Assembly: GCA_017633675.1 (NCBI GenBank)
Contig: JAGBOW010000050.1
Span: 1 to 34,193 of the forward strand
DNA length: 34,193 bases
Direction of reading: 5' to 3'
Origin: a bacterium
GTDB taxonomy: Bacteria > Cyanobacteriota > Vampirovibrionia > Gastranaerophilales > Gastranaerophilaceae
The first letter of the stretch is position 1; each line of letters begins with the position of its first letter. The notes under the pieces are model-generated. The model was not told the DNA's origin. It made no database searches and worked only from the letters and a program-made list of their open reading frames with translations. Position numbers and translations under genes: made by a program. Below are positions 5,032-31,054 of the stretch, one piece after another.

Positions 5032-5060
5032 AATATACCACCGTTGTTAAATAATGTAAA
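5032..5060 (-). promoter_or_regulatory. Promoter of the large pseudo-ATPase gene; predicted leaderless
   Basis: On the minus strand TTTACA (5060-5055), a 17-nt spacer and TATATT (5037-5032). Only 6 nt separate the -10 box from the ATG at 5025, so transcription would start about at the ATG. No Shine-Dalgarno sequence is present. Confidence 0.5.
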
Positions 5061-5067
5061 GAATTTT

Positions 5068-5180
5068 AGTGAAAAGTGAGTTGTGAGTAGTGAATAGTCA
5101 GTATCATAATGTTGTATTTGCGAATTGTTAAGACTGCTTTGTGTAATGAACTTTTCACAACTCACCATTCACTACTCACT
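5068..5180. repeat. Heptamer-arm inverted repeat, copy A
   Basis: The left arm 5068-5100 is four consecutive heptamers fitting DGTGARW (AGTGAAA, AGTGAGT, TGTGAGT, AGTGAAT) plus AGTCA. The right arm 5148-5180 read on the other strand is again four heptamers plus AGTTC. The core is AT-rich and degenerate compared with copies B, D and E. The right arm overlaps the end of dapL and supplies its last codons and TAG stop. Confidence 0.9.
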
Positions 5181-6404: not shown

Positions 6405-7601
6405 ATGAGTATTATTTCTGATGACGAAAATGAAACTAAGCAGCCGGGCAGCCGGGCAGCTAAGTTAGATAATGGTGAAACTTCACAGGCTCAGCAATCC
6501 GATACGGACTTATCGCAATATCGCCCTATCGCCATATCGCCCTCTGATAAAACACCTTCAACCATTCAACCTTTCAACTCTTCAACCAAAAATAAAGAAA
6601 TCAAGCCCGAAGCCAGCGATTTCGACAAAACCTTTGAAAATACCATTCGTCCAAAATCTTTTGATACTTATATCGGACAATCAGCCCTGAAAGAAACCCT
6701 CAAAATTTCTATAGAGGCCTCAAAAAAAAGAGGACTTCCTTTAGACCACCTTCTGTTTTACGGACCTCCGGGATTAGGCAAAACCACTCTTGCGGGAGTT
6801 ATCGCAGAACAAATGGGGGTTGAGATAAAGATTACATCAGCTCCTGCACTTGAAAGACCGAGAGATATAATTGGAATTTTAATGTCTTTAAAAGGGGGAG
6901 AAATTCTGTTTATTGATGAAATCCACCGTTTAAATAAGGTAGCTGAAGAAATTCTCTACCCTGCCATGGAAGATTTTACTTTAGATATGACAACCGGAAA
7001 ATCGCAAACCGTCAAGACATTGAGAATTCCGCTCCCAAAATTTACCCTAATCGGTGCGACAACAAAAGCCGGAGAACTTTCAGGCCCGTTGCGAGACAGA
7101 TTCGGGATTATTCACAGACTGGAATTTTATACGGTTGAAGAACTTTCGCAAGTGATTAAAAGAACTGCAGGGATTTTGGATATTGAAATTACGGAAGAAG
7201 GTGCGAAAGCTATTGCAAAACGTTCCAGAGGAACACCACGTATCGCAAACCGTTTGGTAAAGAGAGTTTCCGACTATGCGATTGTAAAAAATGACGGGAA
7301 AATAACCGAAGATATTGCAAACAAATCGCTTGATATCTTAAATATTGATAATTTCGGATTAGATAGTACCGACAGAAGTCTTTTAAAATTGATTATCGAA
7401 AACTTTAACGGAGGCCCTGTAGGTGTCGAAACAATAGCCGCTGCACTAGGGGAAGATGTCAGAACAATCGAAGATGTATGCGAACCGTATTTGCTTCAGG
7501 CAGGATTTATCCAAAGAACACCGAGAGGAAGAAAAGTTTCTCCATCTGCATATAGACATTTGAATTATAAATATATTAACGAACAAAAAAGTTTATTTTA
7601 A
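6405..7601 (+). CDS. ruvB: Holliday junction branch-migration ATPase RuvB with repeat-encoded N-terminal extension
   Basis: Motor of RuvAB, which drives branch migration of recombination intermediates. Walker A is GPPGLGKTT, Walker B is ILFIDEIH, sensor 1 lies in LIGATT, and the C-terminal winged helix has the typical RTPRGR. The core begins near residue 80 ([10 protein letters not shown]). Residues about 12-61 are encoded by octamer micro-repeats (6438-6461, 6511-6542, 6557-6588), giving a polar, probably disordered insert that includes [22 protein letters not shown] precedes the ATG at 6405, and there is no ATG, GTG or TTG in frame between the insert and the core, so the insert must be translated. 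The gene is divergent from dapL, and its stop overlaps the stop of the convergent HTH gene by the 4-nt palindrome TTAA. Confidence 0.95.
6438..6588 (+). repeat. Octamer micro-repeat mosaic inside ruvB
   Basis: Three blocks of near-perfect tandem octamers: RRGCAGCY x3 at 6438-6461, TATCGCNN x4 at 6511-6542 followed by TCTGATAA, and TTCAACNN x4 at 6557-6588. The first two blocks and the CTGATAAAA tail recur in the same order, strand and reading frame inside folP. Confidence 0.9.
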
Positions 7602-7944: not shown

Positions 7945-8664
7945 ATGAAAAAATCCGGATTTACACTCGCAGAAGTATTAATAACACTGGGGGTAATTGG
8001 TGTTGTTGCAGCTATATCACTTCCGATACTAATAAAAAAATATGATGAAATGGTTACAGTAAACCGTGTTAAACAAACATATTCAATATTATCACAAGCA
8101 TACTTAAGAGCCGTTCAGGATAATGATGATCCAAAATTTTGGGATATCGGGACTGAAAATTCACAAGCCGGTGCTGATAAATTATATAACTATTTTAAGC
8201 CGTATCTTTATAAAGTTAAGGATTGTAATAAAATAAAACGAGGTTGTTTTGCCGATAATTATAAAGCATTGTTTACAGAACAACCATACATTTATCAACC
8301 TGATGGAAATAGTACTTATGCCGGAGGGGTATTAAAAAACGGGACAGTAATTGCATTTTGGTCAATTGGCAGCGGGTGTAAATATTCAGATGGTTACCAA
8401 GCTTATGTTTGTGGATCAATAAAAGTAGATATAAACGGGAAAAAAGGTCCCAATAGAGCAGGACATGATTTCTTTAATTTTGATATAGTTTATTATAAAG
8501 GAATAAAGGCATCTTATGTACCGAAAAATCAAAGAAGCAGTAAATATGGAGAGTATTGTCAATACAATGATCCCTCACAATACAACGGTATAATGTGTAC
8601 AGGCTGGATAATAAAAAACGGCAACATGGACTATTTAAGGCATGATGTTTCAAATAAAAATTAA
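7945..8664 (+). CDS. Prepilin-like protein with type IV/II N-terminal methylation motif (paralogue 1)
   Basis: 239 residues. The N-terminus MKKSGFTLAEVLITLGVIGVV is a class III prepilin signal: short basic leader, cleavage after Gly5, new N-terminal Phe methylated, Glu at +5, then a hydrophobic helix. It is a pilin or pseudopilin processed by PilD-type peptidase and assembled in the inner membrane. The globular part holds several Cys and the motif VDINGKKGPNRAGHDFFNF; the C-terminus has CTGWIIKNGNMDY. All three landmarks recur in the paralogue at 14855. GGAGG lies 7 nt before the ATG. A divergent HTH gene lies upstream and a terminator directly after. Exact role (minor pilin, secretion or adhesion) is unknown. 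Confidence 0.85.
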   Translation: MKKSGFTLAEVLITLGVIGVVAAISLPILIKKYDEMVTVNRVKQTYSILSQAYLRAVQDNDDPKFWDIGTENSQAGADKLYNYFKPYLYKVKDCNKIKRGCFADNYKALFTEQPYIYQPDGNSTYAGGVLKNGTVIAFWSIGSGCKYSDGYQAYVCGSIKVDINGKKGPNRAGHDFFNFDIVYYKGIKASYVPKNQRSSKYGEYCQYNDPSQYNGIMCTGWIIKNGNMDYLRHDVSNKN

Positions 8665-9830: not shown

Positions 9831-9947
9831 AAAATTTCTTCCTTTCACTAAAATAAACTATATTTTTATTCTACTGTTTAAATACTCCTCAAGAATAAAA
9901 ATTGCTAAAATACAGAAAAAATTTAATAAATCTTAACAAACTATTTG

Positions 9948-10066
9948 AGTGAGTAGTGAATAGTGAGTGGTGAATAGTTCATATCAGTTTGTTTCGCAAA
10001 CAAAAATATACTTTCGAGCGAAGCGAGCTTAACAAACTATTCACTATTCACTATTCACTACTCACT
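9948..10066. repeat. Heptamer-arm inverted repeat, copy B
   Basis: The left arm 9948-9980 is four DGTGARW heptamers plus AGTTC; the right arm 10035-10066 is four heptamers inverted, 30 of 32 bases complementary to the left. The core has a hairpin GTTTG-TTTCG-CAAAC and the mirror-symmetric box GAGCGAAGCGAG next to the right arm. This is the clearest of the five copies. The rest of the 9831-10103 gap is AT-rich and shows only the promoter of the next gene. Confidence 0.95.
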
Positions 10067-10079
10067 TTAAAATATTCAT

Positions 10080-14854: not shown

Positions 14855-15685
14855 ATGACTAAAAAAGGTTTCACATTGGCAGAGGTTTTGATTACATTAG
14901 GTGTAATCGGTGTAGTTGCTTCAATAACTCTGCCGACATTGATAAAGGAATACAACAAGCATGTCTGGGTTAGCGCATTGAAAGAAAACTATTCACTACT
15001 CAATCAAGGTTTTAAAAAGATGATAGCCGATGACGGGGTGGAATATATTGCGGATACGGAGGTGTGGAGGAGTATGGGGGAATGGAAACCATGGTTACGG
15101 GGCTGTGATTCTTCTAATATTTCATCAGGTAATTGTAAAGATTTTTTTGATCAATTGAAAAAATATTTTAAAATTACATATATAGGCATAGGTTCAGATA
15201 ACTATATTGGTAGCAATGGTACTACTGAAATGGGTTATAAATATAAATACAGAAATTCTTCCAAAGAATTTGTTGATACTGGTAAAATAATATACCTATC
15301 AAATGGTGCAATGATATGGGGTTATAATTTTGATATAGGTTGCTCTATTAGATCGGATTGTGATGAACTCTACGCAGCAGGAGGACATATGTGTGGTCGT
15401 GCCGGTCATTTTAAAATAGATATCAACGGTAACAGAGGACCTAATGAATTTGGAAAAGATATATTTATGTTTTATATAACAGAAAGAGGACAGCTTGCAC
15501 CTTATGGTGGCAATGATTATGCTATGAGTATGGCTTGGGGATCTGGTTTCTCTCAAGAAAAATTAGATAAATATAAAGCAAAAAAAGGTTTGAAAGGTGA
15601 GTGTCTTATGGGTTCCGGTATGAACGGTGGTGAAGCATGCGCCGGCTTGCTTATCGACCAATTAAATTGGAAAATGGATTACTAG
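14855..15685 (+). CDS. Prepilin-like protein with type IV/II N-terminal methylation motif (paralogue 2)
   Basis: 276 residues. The N-terminus MTKKGFTLAEVLITLGVIGVV is nearly identical to paralogue 1 over the signal and hydrophobic helix, then diverges. Shared landmarks return at KIDINGNRGPNEFGKDIFMF and at the C-terminus (CAGLLIDQLNWKMDY, against CTGWIIKNGNMDY). The DxNGxxGPN motif may form a metal-binding or turn structure (inference). Multiple Cys suggest disulfides outside the membrane. AGAGGAG precedes the ATG. The stop overlaps the ribF stop on the other strand by CTAG. With the divergent HTH gene it repeats the arrangement at 7598-8664. Confidence 0.85.
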   Translation: MTKKGFTLAEVLITLGVIGVVASITLPTLIKEYNKHVWVSALKENYSLLNQGFKKMIADDGVEYIADTEVWRSMGEWKPWLRGCDSSNISSGNCKDFFDQLKKYFKITYIGIGSDNYIGSNGTTEMGYKYKYRNSSKEFVDTGKIIYLSNGAMIWGYNFDIGCSIRSDCDELYAAGGHMCGRAGHFKIDINGNRGPNEFGKDIFMFYITERGQLAPYGGNDYAMSMAWGSGFSQEKLDKYKAKKGLKGECLMGSGMNGGEACAGLLIDQLNWKMDY

Positions 15686-25604: not shown

Positions 25605-25617
25605 AATACCTTTCTTA

Positions 25618-25756
25618 CGGCTATATGGCGATAAGTCTACAAGGCGATAAGTTCGTTTCGGTTAAAAATTGAATAAAAATCAATTTTGATAACATTTTAC
25701 TTTGATTAATTTCTATAAAGAACTTATCGCCCTATCGTCTTATTGCCATATCGCCC
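25618..25756. repeat. Octamer-arm palindrome between gatB and the SIS gene
   Basis: The right arm 25725-25756 is four tandem octamers related to TATCGCCN. The left arm 25618-25649, on the opposite strand, is four more (one diverged). Flanking GAAC/GTTC pairs extend the palindrome. The core of about 70 nt is AT-rich. The same octamer block lies inside ruvB and folP. It separates gatB from the SIS gene and touches the SIS ribosome site. Confidence 0.85.
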
Positions 25757-25760
25757 TTTT

Positions 25761-27206
25761 TTATCCAAGTATTTCCTTCAATATTTCATTAACCGCTTTC
25801 GGATTAGCTCTGCCTTTGGTTTCTTTCATTACCTGTCCTACAAAGAAACCTAAAAGCTGGACTTTACCGTTTTTGTATGCCGAAACTTCACTCGGATGAG
25901 CTTCAACAACTTTTTGCGCAACATCTTTTATCGCACCTGTATCGGAAATCTGGCTCAAACCTCTTTCTTCAACGATTTTTGAAGCAGGTGTGCCGTCTTT
26001 CATCATATCTGTGATAATCTGTTTTCCGATATTATTTGAAATTGTGTTTTTTTCAATTAATGAAATCAATTCAACAAGATTTTCTGGTGTTAATTTTGTA
26101 TCAGTAATTTCAAGTTTTTCTTCTTTTAAATAAGCGGTAATTTCGCCCATGATAAAATTAACCGCAACTTTAGGAGATGCACCGAGTTTCAGAACTTTAT
26201 CAAAGAATAATGCAAGTCCCATTTGTTCAACAATTACTGATGCATCATATTCACTCAAACCTAAAGACATGTATCTTTCACGTTTTTGCTGAGGAAGTTC
26301 AGGCATTTTATCTTTAATTTCCTGAACCCATTCTCTCGAAATTTTTAATGGCATCAAGTCAGGTTCGGGGAAGTATCTGTAATCGTGAGCGTCCTCTTTT
26401 CCTCTCATTGAACGGGTTTCTCTTGAATTATCGTCCCACAATCTTGTTTCCTGAACGACTTCTCCGCCTTCTTCAACGATTTCGATTTGTCTGTCGATTT
26501 CGTATTCAATAGCTCTCTGAAGTGCAGAAAAACTGTTTACGTTCTTGATTTCCGCTCTTGTTCCGAAAGTTTTTGACCCTTTTGGCATGACAGAAATATT
26601 TGCATCACATCTCATTGAACCTTCTTCAAGGTTTCCGTCACAAACACCGATATAACGGACTATATTTCTCAATTCTTCCATATAATTTCTGGCTTCTTCG
26701 GAACTTCTCATATCAGGTTCAGATACGATTTCCAAAAGCGGAGTACCAGCTCTGTTCAGGTCTACTAAAGAATAGCTTGACCCCGCAATTCCGTCTGCGC
26801 CTGCATGAACAAGTTTTCCCGCATCTTCTTCCAAGTGCGCTCTTGTTATACCGATTCTTTTACCTTTAATATCCAAATAACCGTTTATACAAATCGGTTC
26901 ATCATACTGAGAAATCTGATAACCTTTCGGAAGATCGGGATAAAAATATTGTTTTCTGTCAAATTTACATCTTTCAGGGATTTCACAATTTAAAGCCAAA
27001 CCTGTTAAAATACCCATATTAACAACTTCTTTATTCAAAACAGGCAAAACACCGGGCATGCCTAATGTTATAGGGCTTGTTTCAGAATTTGGTTCATGCC
27101 CGAATTCACATCCGTCCGGTGCAAATATTTTTGATTTTGTTTTCAGTTGTGCGTGAACTTCCAAGCCGATTACGACTTCGTATTTATCTCTCAATTCTGT
27201 TGTCAT
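25761..27206 (-). CDS. gatB: Asp/Glu-tRNA amidotransferase subunit B
   Basis: 481 residues. Family hallmarks: YEVVIGLEVHAQL, PLGMPGVLPVLN-like segment ITLGMPGVLPVLN, FDRKQYFYPDLPKGYQISQYD, HLEEDAGKLVH, DLNRAGTPLLEIVSEPD and the C-terminal YqeY-like domain with LLGFFVGQVMKETKGRANP. As part of GatCAB it converts misacylated Glu-tRNA-Gln and/or Asp-tRNA-Asn. gatA and gatC are not in this window. AAGGAGA precedes the ATG; repeat copy C lies immediately upstream. Confidence 0.97.
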   Translation of the reverse strand: MTTELRDKYEVVIGLEVHAQLKTKSKIFAPDGCEFGHEPNSETSPITLGMPGVLPVLNKEVVNMGILTGLALNCEIPERCKFDRKQYFYPDLPKGYQISQYDEPICINGYLDIKGKRIGITRAHLEEDAGKLVHAGADGIAGSSYSLVDLNRAGTPLLEIVSEPDMRSSEEARNYMEELRNIVRYIGVCDGNLEEGSMRCDANISVMPKGSKTFGTRAEIKNVNSFSALQRAIEYEIDRQIEIVEEGGEVVQETRLWDDNSRETRSMRGKEDAHDYRYFPEPDLMPLKISREWVQEIKDKMPELPQQKRERYMSLGLSEYDASVIVEQMGLALFFDKVLKLGASPKVAVNFIMGEITAYLKEEKLEITDTKLTPENLVELISLIEKNTISNNIGKQIITDMMKDGTPASKIVEERGLSQISDTGAIKDVAQKVVEAHPSEVSAYKNGKVQLLGFFVGQVMKETKGRANPKAVNEILKEILG

Positions 27207-27220
27207 AATATCTCCTTATT

Positions 27221-27336
27221 AGTGAACTGTGAGTGGTGAGTGGTGAGTGGTGAATGGTTCTTTACAAAAATAGTCAATATCAGATTTTAACAACTTTTGA
27301 TATGAACTACTCACAATTCACAACTCACTACTCACT
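27221..27336. repeat. Heptamer-arm inverted repeat, copy C
   Basis: The left arm 27221-27260 has five DGTGARW heptamers plus GGTTC; the right arm 27304-27336 has four plus AGTTC. The core is AT-rich without the GAGCGAAGCGAG box. The last base of the right arm is also the last base of the folP stop codon. Confidence 0.9.
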
Positions 27337-28646
27337 TATCCTACCACAAACATTTTCATCAAATCAACAAGTGCTCTGTGCATTTTTACATTGTGAACAC
27401 GAATGTAATCGACTTTTCTTTCTACAGCCAGTGCATTTATTGCGACCGTGAAAATATCACGCTCATTATTATCTTCCATTTGAAGAAAACTTTTCCTTGA
27501 AATCCCGAGCATGACAGGATAACCCAATGATTTAAATTCTTCAACACGCCTTATTATTTCAAAATTGTTCTCTCTTGTTTTGCCAAAACCTATACCGGGA
27601 TCAACTATAATATTTTCTATCCCTTTTGACTTTGCAAACTGACATTTTTTATAAAGTTCAAGATAAATTTCTTCAATAACATCACCATATTGCGGATTTT
27701 CCTGCATATTTTCGGGAGTACCTTTTGAATGTTGGATAATAACGGGGCAATTATATTTTGAGATTATATCAACCATTTTTTTATCATAATCAAAACCCGA
27801 AACGTCATTTATAACAGTTGCACCTGCTTTCAGACATTCTTCGGCAACTTTTGCACTTCGGGTATCAATGCTCAAAGGGATTTTTTCTTTGGCAAATTCT
27901 ATTACGGGAAGAAGTTTTTTAAGTTGTTCTTCATCAGAAATGGGAGAAGAATAAGGTTTTGTACTTTCCGCACCGATATCTATTATATCTGCACCGTCAT
28001 TTATCATTTCCTCCAAATGTTTTTTTGCACTTTCAAAATCGTTATACATTCCGCCATCAGAGAAAGAATTATTTGTGATGTTGAGGATACCGACAATGGA
28101 GGGCAGGCTTTTATAGGTTGAAGGGTTTTTATCAGAGGGCGATATGGCATTAAGGCGATAAGGCGATAGGGCCGTATCAGTTTGTTGATGCTGTGAGATT
28201 CTGCCAATATTACTATCATTAAAAAGCTTGTCTTCCTGCCTTCCTGACCTCTGTTCTTCTAAATTCTTAGCTTCATAGCTGCCTGGCTGCTTAGCTGCTT
28301 TTGACATTAAATCAAGCAAATTTTCCCCAAGCATTTTCAATCCGAACGGCTGAAATTTCAACTTTTCCGCAATCTTTTTTATCTGAGAAACACTTCCGCC
28401 CAAAATGCAGTCGGAAGTTTCTATTTTTCCCGTAATTACTTCCCTGTGCGTTGCACAATCAGCTCCTACAGAAATAGCAGTCTGTTTTATAATATTTGCT
28501 TGTGCAGGGGTAAGAGAATAAATTTTTATATTTTTATAGTCAAATTTTTCACACACTTTATGTATATAAGATTTGTCAAACCCTATTTTTTCGATTTCAC
28601 ATGCAATATCCGTATCTTTAATTTCTCTCAAAATAAAATCGTGCAC
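27336..28646 (-). CDS. folP: Dihydropteroate synthase with N-terminal domain and repeat-encoded linker
   Basis: 436 residues, against about 280 for the core enzyme. The DHPS barrel begins near residue 183 (SIVGILNITNNSFSDGG, pterin site), with DIGAESTKP, LSIDTRSAKVA, INDVSG and IVDPGIGFGKT. It condenses hydroxymethyldihydropterin diphosphate with p-aminobenzoate for folate. Residues 1-115 form an N-terminal domain seen in some anaerobe DHPS proteins. Residues about 116-180 are encoded by octamer repeats homologous to those in ruvB and include YRLNAISPSDKNPST. The start is GTG at 28646, inside a terminator stem. No Shine-Dalgarno sequence is seen, and an in-frame stop lies just upstream. Confidence 0.9.
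   Translation of the reverse strand: MHDFILREIKDTDIACEIEKIGFDKSYIHKVCEKFDYKNIKIYSLTPAQANIIKQTAISVGADCATHREVITGKIETSDCILGGSVSQIKKIAEKLKFQPFGLKMLGENLLDLMSKAAKQPGSYEAKNLEEQRSGRQEDKLFNDSNIGRISQHQQTDTALSPYRLNAISPSDKNPSTYKSLPSIVGILNITNNSFSDGGMYNDFESAKKHLEEMINDGADIIDIGAESTKPYSSPISDEEQLKKLLPVIEFAKEKIPLSIDTRSAKVAEECLKAGATVINDVSGFDYDKKMVDIISKYNCPVIIQHSKGTPENMQENPQYGDVIEEIYLELYKKCQFAKSKGIENIIVDPGIGFGKTRENNFEIIRRVEEFKSLGYPVMLGISRKSFLQMEDNNERDIFTVAINALAVERKVDYIRVHNVKMHRALVDLMKMFVVG
28137..28300 (-). repeat. Octamer micro-repeat mosaic inside folP
   Basis: On the coding strand: four RRGCAGCY-type octamers (28300-28269), a short CAGGAAGR pair near 28245-28230, and four TATCGCCN-type octamers (28168-28137) followed by TCTGATAAAA. 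It has the same order, strand and translated frame as in ruvB. Confidence 0.9.
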
Positions 28647-29847: not shown

Positions 29848-29926
29848 ATCTTCTCCGTTTTCTCCTTTATTGTAACATATGAAAATAAAAAATTTTGCTA
29901 TTGTGTTAAGGAATGTTAAGAATAAT

Positions 29927-30040
29927 AGTGAGTTGTGAATGGTGAGTAGTGAAATGACCTTTTCGGTTTGCTTCGCAAACAGAAGTTATATTTTTCGAGC
30001 GAAGCGAGCTTAAAGAACCACTCACAATTCACTACTCACT
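29927..30040. repeat. Heptamer-arm inverted repeat, copy D
   Basis: The left arm 29927-29959 has four DGTGARW heptamers plus TGACC; the right arm 30015-30040 has three plus GGTTC. The core holds a perfect hairpin, GTTTGC-TTC-GCAAAC, and the GAGCGAAGCGAG box next to the right arm. The right arm encodes the last residues (VSSEL) and stop of the radical SAM gene. Confidence 0.9.
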
Positions 30041-30936: not shown

Positions 30937-30940
30937 AATA

Positions 30941-31054
30941 AGTGAAATGTAAAAGGTGAGATGTGAAAAGTTCTTTAAGCTCGCTTCGCTCGAGAATATT
31001 TTTTGCACGAAGTGCCGATACGGTCTTTTCACGTTTCACTTTTCACTTCTCACA
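30941..31054. repeat. Heptamer-arm inverted repeat, copy E
   Basis: The left arm 30941-30973 and the right arm 31022-31054 each have four diverged heptamers, mostly DGTGAAA. The core is inverted relative to copies B and D: the GAGCGAAGCGAG box (read on the minus strand) is next to the left arm. The hairpin is GCAC-TTC-GTGC. The element begins 4 nt before the radical SAM start codon. Confidence 0.9.

Follow-up and report, generated by a model that had tools for sequence, protein, structure and literature searches.

The window (the whole 34,193-nt stretch of DNA that was analysed, contig JAGBOW010000050.1 of assembly GCA_017633675.1) contains two genes, folP and ruvB, each interrupted in frame by an insert made largely of tandem octamers. 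The features of folP are as follows.

27336 to 28646, minus strand: folP, dihydropteroate synthase with an N-terminal domain and a PF00809 barrel (ORF call; Pfam Pterin_bind at residues 186-418)
28110 to 28303, minus strand: whole in-frame insert, a gap in relatives from residues ~112 to ~183
28269 to 28300, minus strand: RRGCAGCY octamer array (KAAKQPGSYEAK)
about 28235 to 28258, minus strand: AGGNCAGG octamer units (EEQRSGRQED)
28169 to 28235, minus strand: non-repetitive core (EDKLFNDSNIGRISQHQQTDTA), common to about ten other ORFs in the same frame
28137 to 28168, minus strand: TATCGCCN octamer array (LSPYRLNAISP)
about 28116 to 28136, minus strand: TCTGATAAAA tail and CTTCAACC unit, reading TCTGATAAAAACCCTTCAACC

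The second host, ruvB, is organized similarly.

6405 to 7601, plus strand: ruvB (ORF call; Pfam)
6435 to 6590, plus strand: whole in-frame insert, ahead of the RuvB_N domain
6438 to 6461, plus strand: RRGCAGCY array (KQPGSRAA), three units AAGCAGCC GGGCAGCC GGGCAGCT
6462 to 6511, plus strand: spacer encoding a 17-residue peptide, 50/50 nt identical to the murT spacer (L142:2715-2764)
about 6511 to 6542, plus strand: TATCGCCN array (11-residue peptide), units TATCGCAA TATCGCCC TATCGCCA TATCGCCC
6542 to 6590, plus strand: TCTGATAAAA tail (TCTGATAAAACACCTTCAACC), then TTCAACC octamers

Along the minus strand from 28300 to 28269, the RRGCAGCY-type units of folP are AAGCAGCT AAGCAGCC AGGCAGCT ATGAAGCT; the consensus fits three, and the fourth is degenerate. 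The TATCGCC-type units from 28168 to 28137 are TATCGCCT TATCGCCT TAATGCCA TATCGCCC, the third being degenerate. The first-pass annotation had described four-unit arrays in both genes. Their positions hold, but the GCAGC units of ruvB number three rather than four, and each gene has one or two degenerate units. The spacers between the arrays are unequal in length, ~100 nt in folP and 49 nt in ruvB, but partly homologous.

The same annotation had proposed that the two genes have one octamer insert in common, and we agree, as the order of the blocks, their strand relative to the gene and their frame all match. Local DNA alignment of one insert against the other reaches a best score of 93 across 96 columns; the highest among 2000 codon shuffles is 35.

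Orthologues in relatives lack the inserts. Among 18 congeners, FolP was recovered from 17, always without the insert, although one of these is a fragment ending short of the site, and RuvB from all 18, again without it. FolP and RuvB of 11 more distant relatives of the same order are also without inserts. Relatives' FolP aligns to the window protein over residues 1-112 and again over 183-435, leaving the stretch in the middle unmatched, and relatives' RuvB alignment begins only past the insert. Because PF00809 starts at residue 186 of FolP and RuvB_N at residue 81 of RuvB, both inserts lie outside the catalytic domains. The ends of the folP insert are placed to ~10 nt; at this precision, and with relatives too diverged at the DNA level, no target-site duplication is established.

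Copies across the genome

TATCGCC unit pairs (at most one mismatch) occur 176 times in this genome, where the reversed-pattern control occurs once; the 32 congeners have between 0 and 3 pairs apiece. Three-unit arrays (at most two mismatches) number 145 here; most of the 240 other genomes of the order have zero, and the highest count among them is 24. The genome with 24 belongs to another genus (G133; L341-L352), and those of its ~24 arrays that were examined are all intergenic. In G133 and three other genomes of the same family (G073, G114, G078), arrays in 20 stretches include none inside a gene, with one at the start of a long ORF.

Searched with an HMM of the insert peptides, the ORFs of at least 200 aa in this genome return 33 matches (E ≤ 1e-3), spread over 32 ORFs; 31 congeners return none. 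Among the 20 insert-bearing hosts that were scanned are PflA, TrhP, an AddA-like helicase, NadE, ObgE, MurE, MurF, MurG and MetG, and further NadC, QueF, MurT, AroA, ThiL, FolC, IspG and HydF. In MurE, MetG, ObgE, IspG and ThiL the insert lies within the family-match span, that is, inside the enzyme domain. The earlier statement that the element is tolerated only in linker positions is therefore too strong.

The inserts are built of modules in a fixed order: GCAGC octamers (KAAKQPGSYAAK), a middle part, and TATCGCC octamers (DTDLSPYRPIALSP). The middle part comes in three versions, namely AGGNCAGG octamers with the core (EEQRSGRQEDKLFNDSNIGRISQHQQ), a short 11-residue version, and a heptamer hairpin (SGKWKVESGKLNNFQLSTFNFQ). 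In a 704-kb sample, the 60-nt core is found in about ten ORFs in one frame, and elsewhere as just one 17-nt fragment. This sample, used for all counts of coding and non-coding position, strand and frame, is 37% of the genome, with contigs partly picked for hits.

The first-pass suggestion of a mobile or recombining element gains from these data: an insert in 32 ORFs, with 0 matches in 31 congeners and with a spacer identical over 50 of 50 nt between ruvB and murT, points to a mobile or copying element rather than to coincidence or homology of the hosts. The folP and ruvB inserts are probably copies of one small non-autonomous selfish repeat that has multiplied in one species and sits in frame in many genes. 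Blocks of tandem octamers (RRGCAGCY, AGGNCAGG, TATCGCCN and TTCAACC) and a short non-repetitive core make up this composite element, which would have spread by transposition or copying.

Recombination or gene conversion among dispersed short tandem repeats, with no dedicated mobile element, might instead have seeded the arrays in genes. The mosaic nature of the 7-8-mer arms, their variable unit number and the joining of left and right arms of different families in one insert fit such a process, which we nevertheless regard as unlikely, as it does not readily explain a 50-nt non-repetitive spacer identical in ruvB and murT or a 60-nt core in about ten genes, and in the relatives, whose genes are intact, the site has no array for recombination to act on.

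The genome is a draft (147 contigs, 89% complete), and octamer arrays are located near the ends of many of its contigs, e.g. C44, C45, C94, C120 and C127, suggesting that the repeats fragment the assembly and that the true copy number is higher. Draft quality and contig ends near repeats also leave some room for an assembly or binning artefact, in which repeats were misjoined into genes of a metagenome-assembled genome. We consider this very improbable: in 32 ORFs the reading frame runs on across the insert, with protein matches on both sides in those checked, whereas misassembly would break the frame two times in three, and the octamer family recurs, in intergenic positions, in independently assembled genomes.

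Strand, frame and stop codons

Neither 8 nor 7 is divisible by 3. Whichever forward frame is read, an octamer array therefore encodes a single cyclic octapeptide, YRPIALSP in the case of TATCGCCC, and heptamer arrays likewise encode a single heptapeptide. The reverse strand of TATCGCC has TAG or TAA in every frame, AAGCAGCT arrays have a stop in every frame of both strands, and GTGARTR arms have stops in every frame of the forward strand. Of 35 inserts, 29 are closed in all five other frames, and the six exceptions are short or partial.

In the 704-kb sample, all 19 of the four-unit TATCGCC arrays in genes have the same strand and phase, as expected if all descend from a single composite in which one frame was open. 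Coding copies are thus not spread over strands and frames in proportion to chance, which agrees with the earlier expectation. The restriction to one frame had also been taken to point to a frame-specific tolerance, and here we differ, as the identical cyclic peptide in every forward frame rules this out as evidence of mechanism; common descent and a stop-codon filter account for the shared strand and frame.

The families free of stops are present in genes at approximately the coding-density rate. Their coding to non-coding counts are 21/2 for GTGGAAA, 16/1 for RRGCAGCY and 14/3 for AGGNCAGG, at a coding density of ~80%. The count for GTGARTR is 0/101, where 15 hits overlapping ORFs on the opposite strand near ORF starts were counted as outside genes. 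Four-unit TATCGCC arrays depart from coding density, at 19 genic to 49 intergenic; many copies are palindromic, with stops in the other arm. Where the phase of a genic unit would turn GTTGAAA into a TGA stop, the unit reads GTG in 31 of 31 cases, and units at other phases have T in 11 of 34 (p = 4e-4), although the test is partly circular in that the ORF had to be open.

The counts of the stop-free families and of GTGARTR would follow if insertion were roughly indifferent to coding and intergenic DNA and selection then purged every copy in which a stop codon came along. Stop-free arm families would enter genes at the coding-density rate, and those with stops, such as the GTGARTR heptamers, would be left only between genes. 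The stop codons of the units would in that case be a built-in account of which repeat families can enter genes.

The palindromic forms are of use in comparison with the folP and ruvB inserts.

25612 to 25762, no strand assigned: intergenic palindromic element of TATCGCC octamers in inverted arms, fold z -8.2
9940 to 10075, no strand assigned: intergenic hairpin with GTGARTR heptamer arms, fold z -14.7

Genic GTGGAAA inserts are also palindromic (z -5.4). A hairpin in the folP and ruvB inserts was considered and rejected, as neither is palindromic and neither shows excess folding (RNA fold z +1.35 and -0.50, respectively). Each joins the left arm of one family to the right arm of another. The absent partner arms, GGCGATA on the left and AGCTGCT on the right, bear stops, which in part explains why these inserts are non-palindromic. 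Their lack of a palindrome, unlike the intergenic forms and the Rickettsia elements discussed below, speaks against the selfish-repeat reading. Incidentally, the window has five inverted-repeat elements of GTGARTR or GTGAAAR units in intergenic or gene-end positions (5045-5180, 9925-10067, 27215-27336, 29904-30040 and 30940-31054).

As the inserts occur in core enzymes and some are inside domains, ribosomes could conceivably skip them, as at the byps of yeast mitochondria or in gene 60 of phage T4. Such translational bypassing is barely plausible here, as in-frame, stop-free inserts with arms adapted to avoid stops would be needless under it, and those in folP and ruvB have no notable fold. 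The insert peptides would be translated and harmless; each probably forms a flexible loop or linker that the host protein accommodates but does not profit from.

Selection on the peptide, another check that the earlier annotation had called for, is only partly discernible. The ratio pN/pS is below 1 for all modules (0.37-0.56), but the spacer core (0.50, 95% interval 0.31-0.91) is the sole module whose interval excludes 1, the other intervals including it. Codon-level constraint on the insert peptide is thus weak at most.

The low ratios, particularly that of the core, together with the constant frame and invariant module order, would also suit a functional module such as a degradation tag, a localisation signal or a binding motif, which recombination would have distributed and selection would maintain in core enzymes. 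This is quite unlikely in our estimation. The hosts have no evident common feature, per-column variation of TATCGCC arrays is about the same in genes as in non-coding DNA with no third-codon-position pattern, most pN/pS intervals include 1, and stop-free families are no commoner in genes than coding density predicts.

Repeat units at PF05635 genes and in other bacteria

PF05635 is the S23p (23S-rRNA IVP) family of four-helix bundles. Every unit family of the inserts that was examined is an arm of some PF05635 element in the genus. In G008 and G043, TATCGCC octamers (GGCGATAA/TATCGCC) form inverted arms around a 114-aa PF05635 ORF between rimP-like and nusA-like genes. The arms are RRGCAGCY (GCAGC) octamers in G035, AGGGCAGG octamers in G018, G033 and G038, and the AGGNCAGG unit, as in the folP insert, in congener loci L160, L169 and L171. 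A unit like the TTCAACC octamers of ruvB (GTTGAAAG/CATTCAAC) flanks PF05635 in G033 (L150). In the present genome (G000), GTGAGTG heptamers flank a PF05635 copy on contig C62, with GTGARTR arms as at 9940-10075 of the window; PF05635 copies with RRGCAGCY or TATCGCC arms were found only in congeners, none in this genome.

In the rimP-nusA gap, five congeners (L154, L158, L157, L148, L151) carry a PF05635 gene whose arms belong to one of three families. In each case the two arms are complementary to one another, so that, judging from the sequences, they change together. A frame-broken PF05635 copy on contig C12 of this genome (L176:1501-1815) has GTTGAAA/TTTCAAC arms, a family otherwise almost confined to genes here.

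The association extends beyond the order. We surveyed 80 PF05635 loci (L231-L310), mostly from Bacteroidota, with Geobacter, Clostridia, candidate phyla and others. The inverted-repeat score of the flanks is at least 30 at 37 of 74 loci (e.g. L249, L276, L269, L298, L291) and at 1 of 138 control positions, and the flanks are periodic at lags 7 and 8 (p = 2e-39). Beside the arrays in the 20 stretches of G133, G073, G114 and G078, a search for PF05635 by a simple motif gave no match.

Since their units serve as inverted arms of PF05635 genes in the genus, the folP and ruvB inserts are most likely related to a mobile element associated with PF05635, differing from it in having no ORF within. The link to PF05635 is one of association, from which we infer mobilisation; the protein or its element may supply the machinery. 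A MITE of a DDE transposon would have its terminal inverted repeats in common with an autonomous copy; here the arms recur in PF05635-bearing elements, but PF05635 is no known transposase, and no transposase is tied to the insert element. A Y1 (RAYT) transposase was rejected as the mobiliser, as PF01797, the Y1 family of IS200/IS605 type, is absent from this genome at 89% completeness. The units common to inserts and PF05635 flanks offer a concrete, testable connection: they tie a protein family that is very common but functionally uncharacterised to tandem heptamers and to small, scattered repeats.

To our knowledge, selfish repeats lying in frame within protein genes have been described chiefly in a few bacteria, namely Rickettsia, Wolbachia and, for REPs, some others.

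The Rickettsia RPE and Wolbachia WPE (Ogata et al. 2000, 2002, 2005, reviewed in PMC2229807) are selfish repeats of ~100-150 bp that lie between genes and also, in frame, inside many conserved protein genes. The inserts described here appear to work like RPE, and are placed beside them for this mode of working rather than as members by sequence. Here too stop-free members sit in genes, in many unrelated hosts (32 ORFs), and the relatives' FolP and RuvB lack the insert. RPE are palindromes with 12-bp terminal repeats, whereas the units here are tandem 7-8-mers and the folP/ruvB form is a non-palindromic composite; the palindromic stem-loop of RPE has its counterpart in the GTGGAAA inserts and the intergenic TATCGCC form. 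The host also differs, being a gut-type bacterium that is Gastranaerophilales-like to judge by its gene content, as does the match of the units to PF05635 arms.

The stop-codon logic has a parallel in the Correia/NEMIS elements of Neisseria (107 bp and 155 bp), whose stop-free species are found in ORFs and whose stop-bearing species are almost only intergenic, although sequence and structure differ and NEMIS have no tandem octamers (PMC2229807). BrickBuilt, a MITE of Porphyromonas, similarly has a tandem-repeat array, but with 23-nt units and always in intergenic positions (PMC4596501). REP/REPIN sequences with RAYT are short dispersed palindromes, some in ORFs (PMC3116915, PMC3733652), unlike here, where the genome has no Y1 transposase. 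Heptamer repeats (STRR) of cyanobacteria and Xanthomonas are dispersed tandem heptamers, some of them inverted repeats, reported as intergenic; the available portion of that report describes neither a PF05635 link nor in-frame invasion (PMC4692102).

The 23S rRNA intervening sequence of Coxiella has an inverted-repeat stem around a PF05635 ORF, with tandem heptamers (GACAGAT) directly upstream of the ORF that vary in number between strains (PMC4990558). The tandem 7-8-mer arms are thus common to it and to the folP and ruvB inserts, but these have no ORF between inverted arms, and the PF05635 elements described here lie between protein genes rather than in 23S rRNA. Apart from the Coxiella heptamers, a search of open-access literature found no link of PF05635 genes in general to tandem 7-8-mer arms.

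We offer tentatively, as a reading that may well prove wrong, that a widespread class of mobile elements has gone unrecognised, with inverted tandem 7-8-mer arrays as its ends and PF05635 genes as its coding part, with the 23S-rRNA intervening sequences as one special case and with ORF-less derivatives that can invade protein genes wholesale when their units are stop-free, as in this species. If so, those intervening sequences, long unexplained, would fall under this class.

In-frame invasion by RPE and the stop-codon logic of Neisseria elements are already known. As far as the open-access literature shows, absence from which is no proof, the tandem 7-8-mer composite in a non-rickettsial lineage, its species-limited burst and the PF05635 association are new. 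In-frame repeats seem to have multiplied recently, in a burst, in a lineage distinct from those in which they were known, hitting enzymes of folate synthesis, the cell wall, tRNA charging and recombination. Elsewhere in the window, two pilin-like proteins with FTLAEVLITLGVIGVVA N-termini are encoded at 7945-8664 and 14855-15685.
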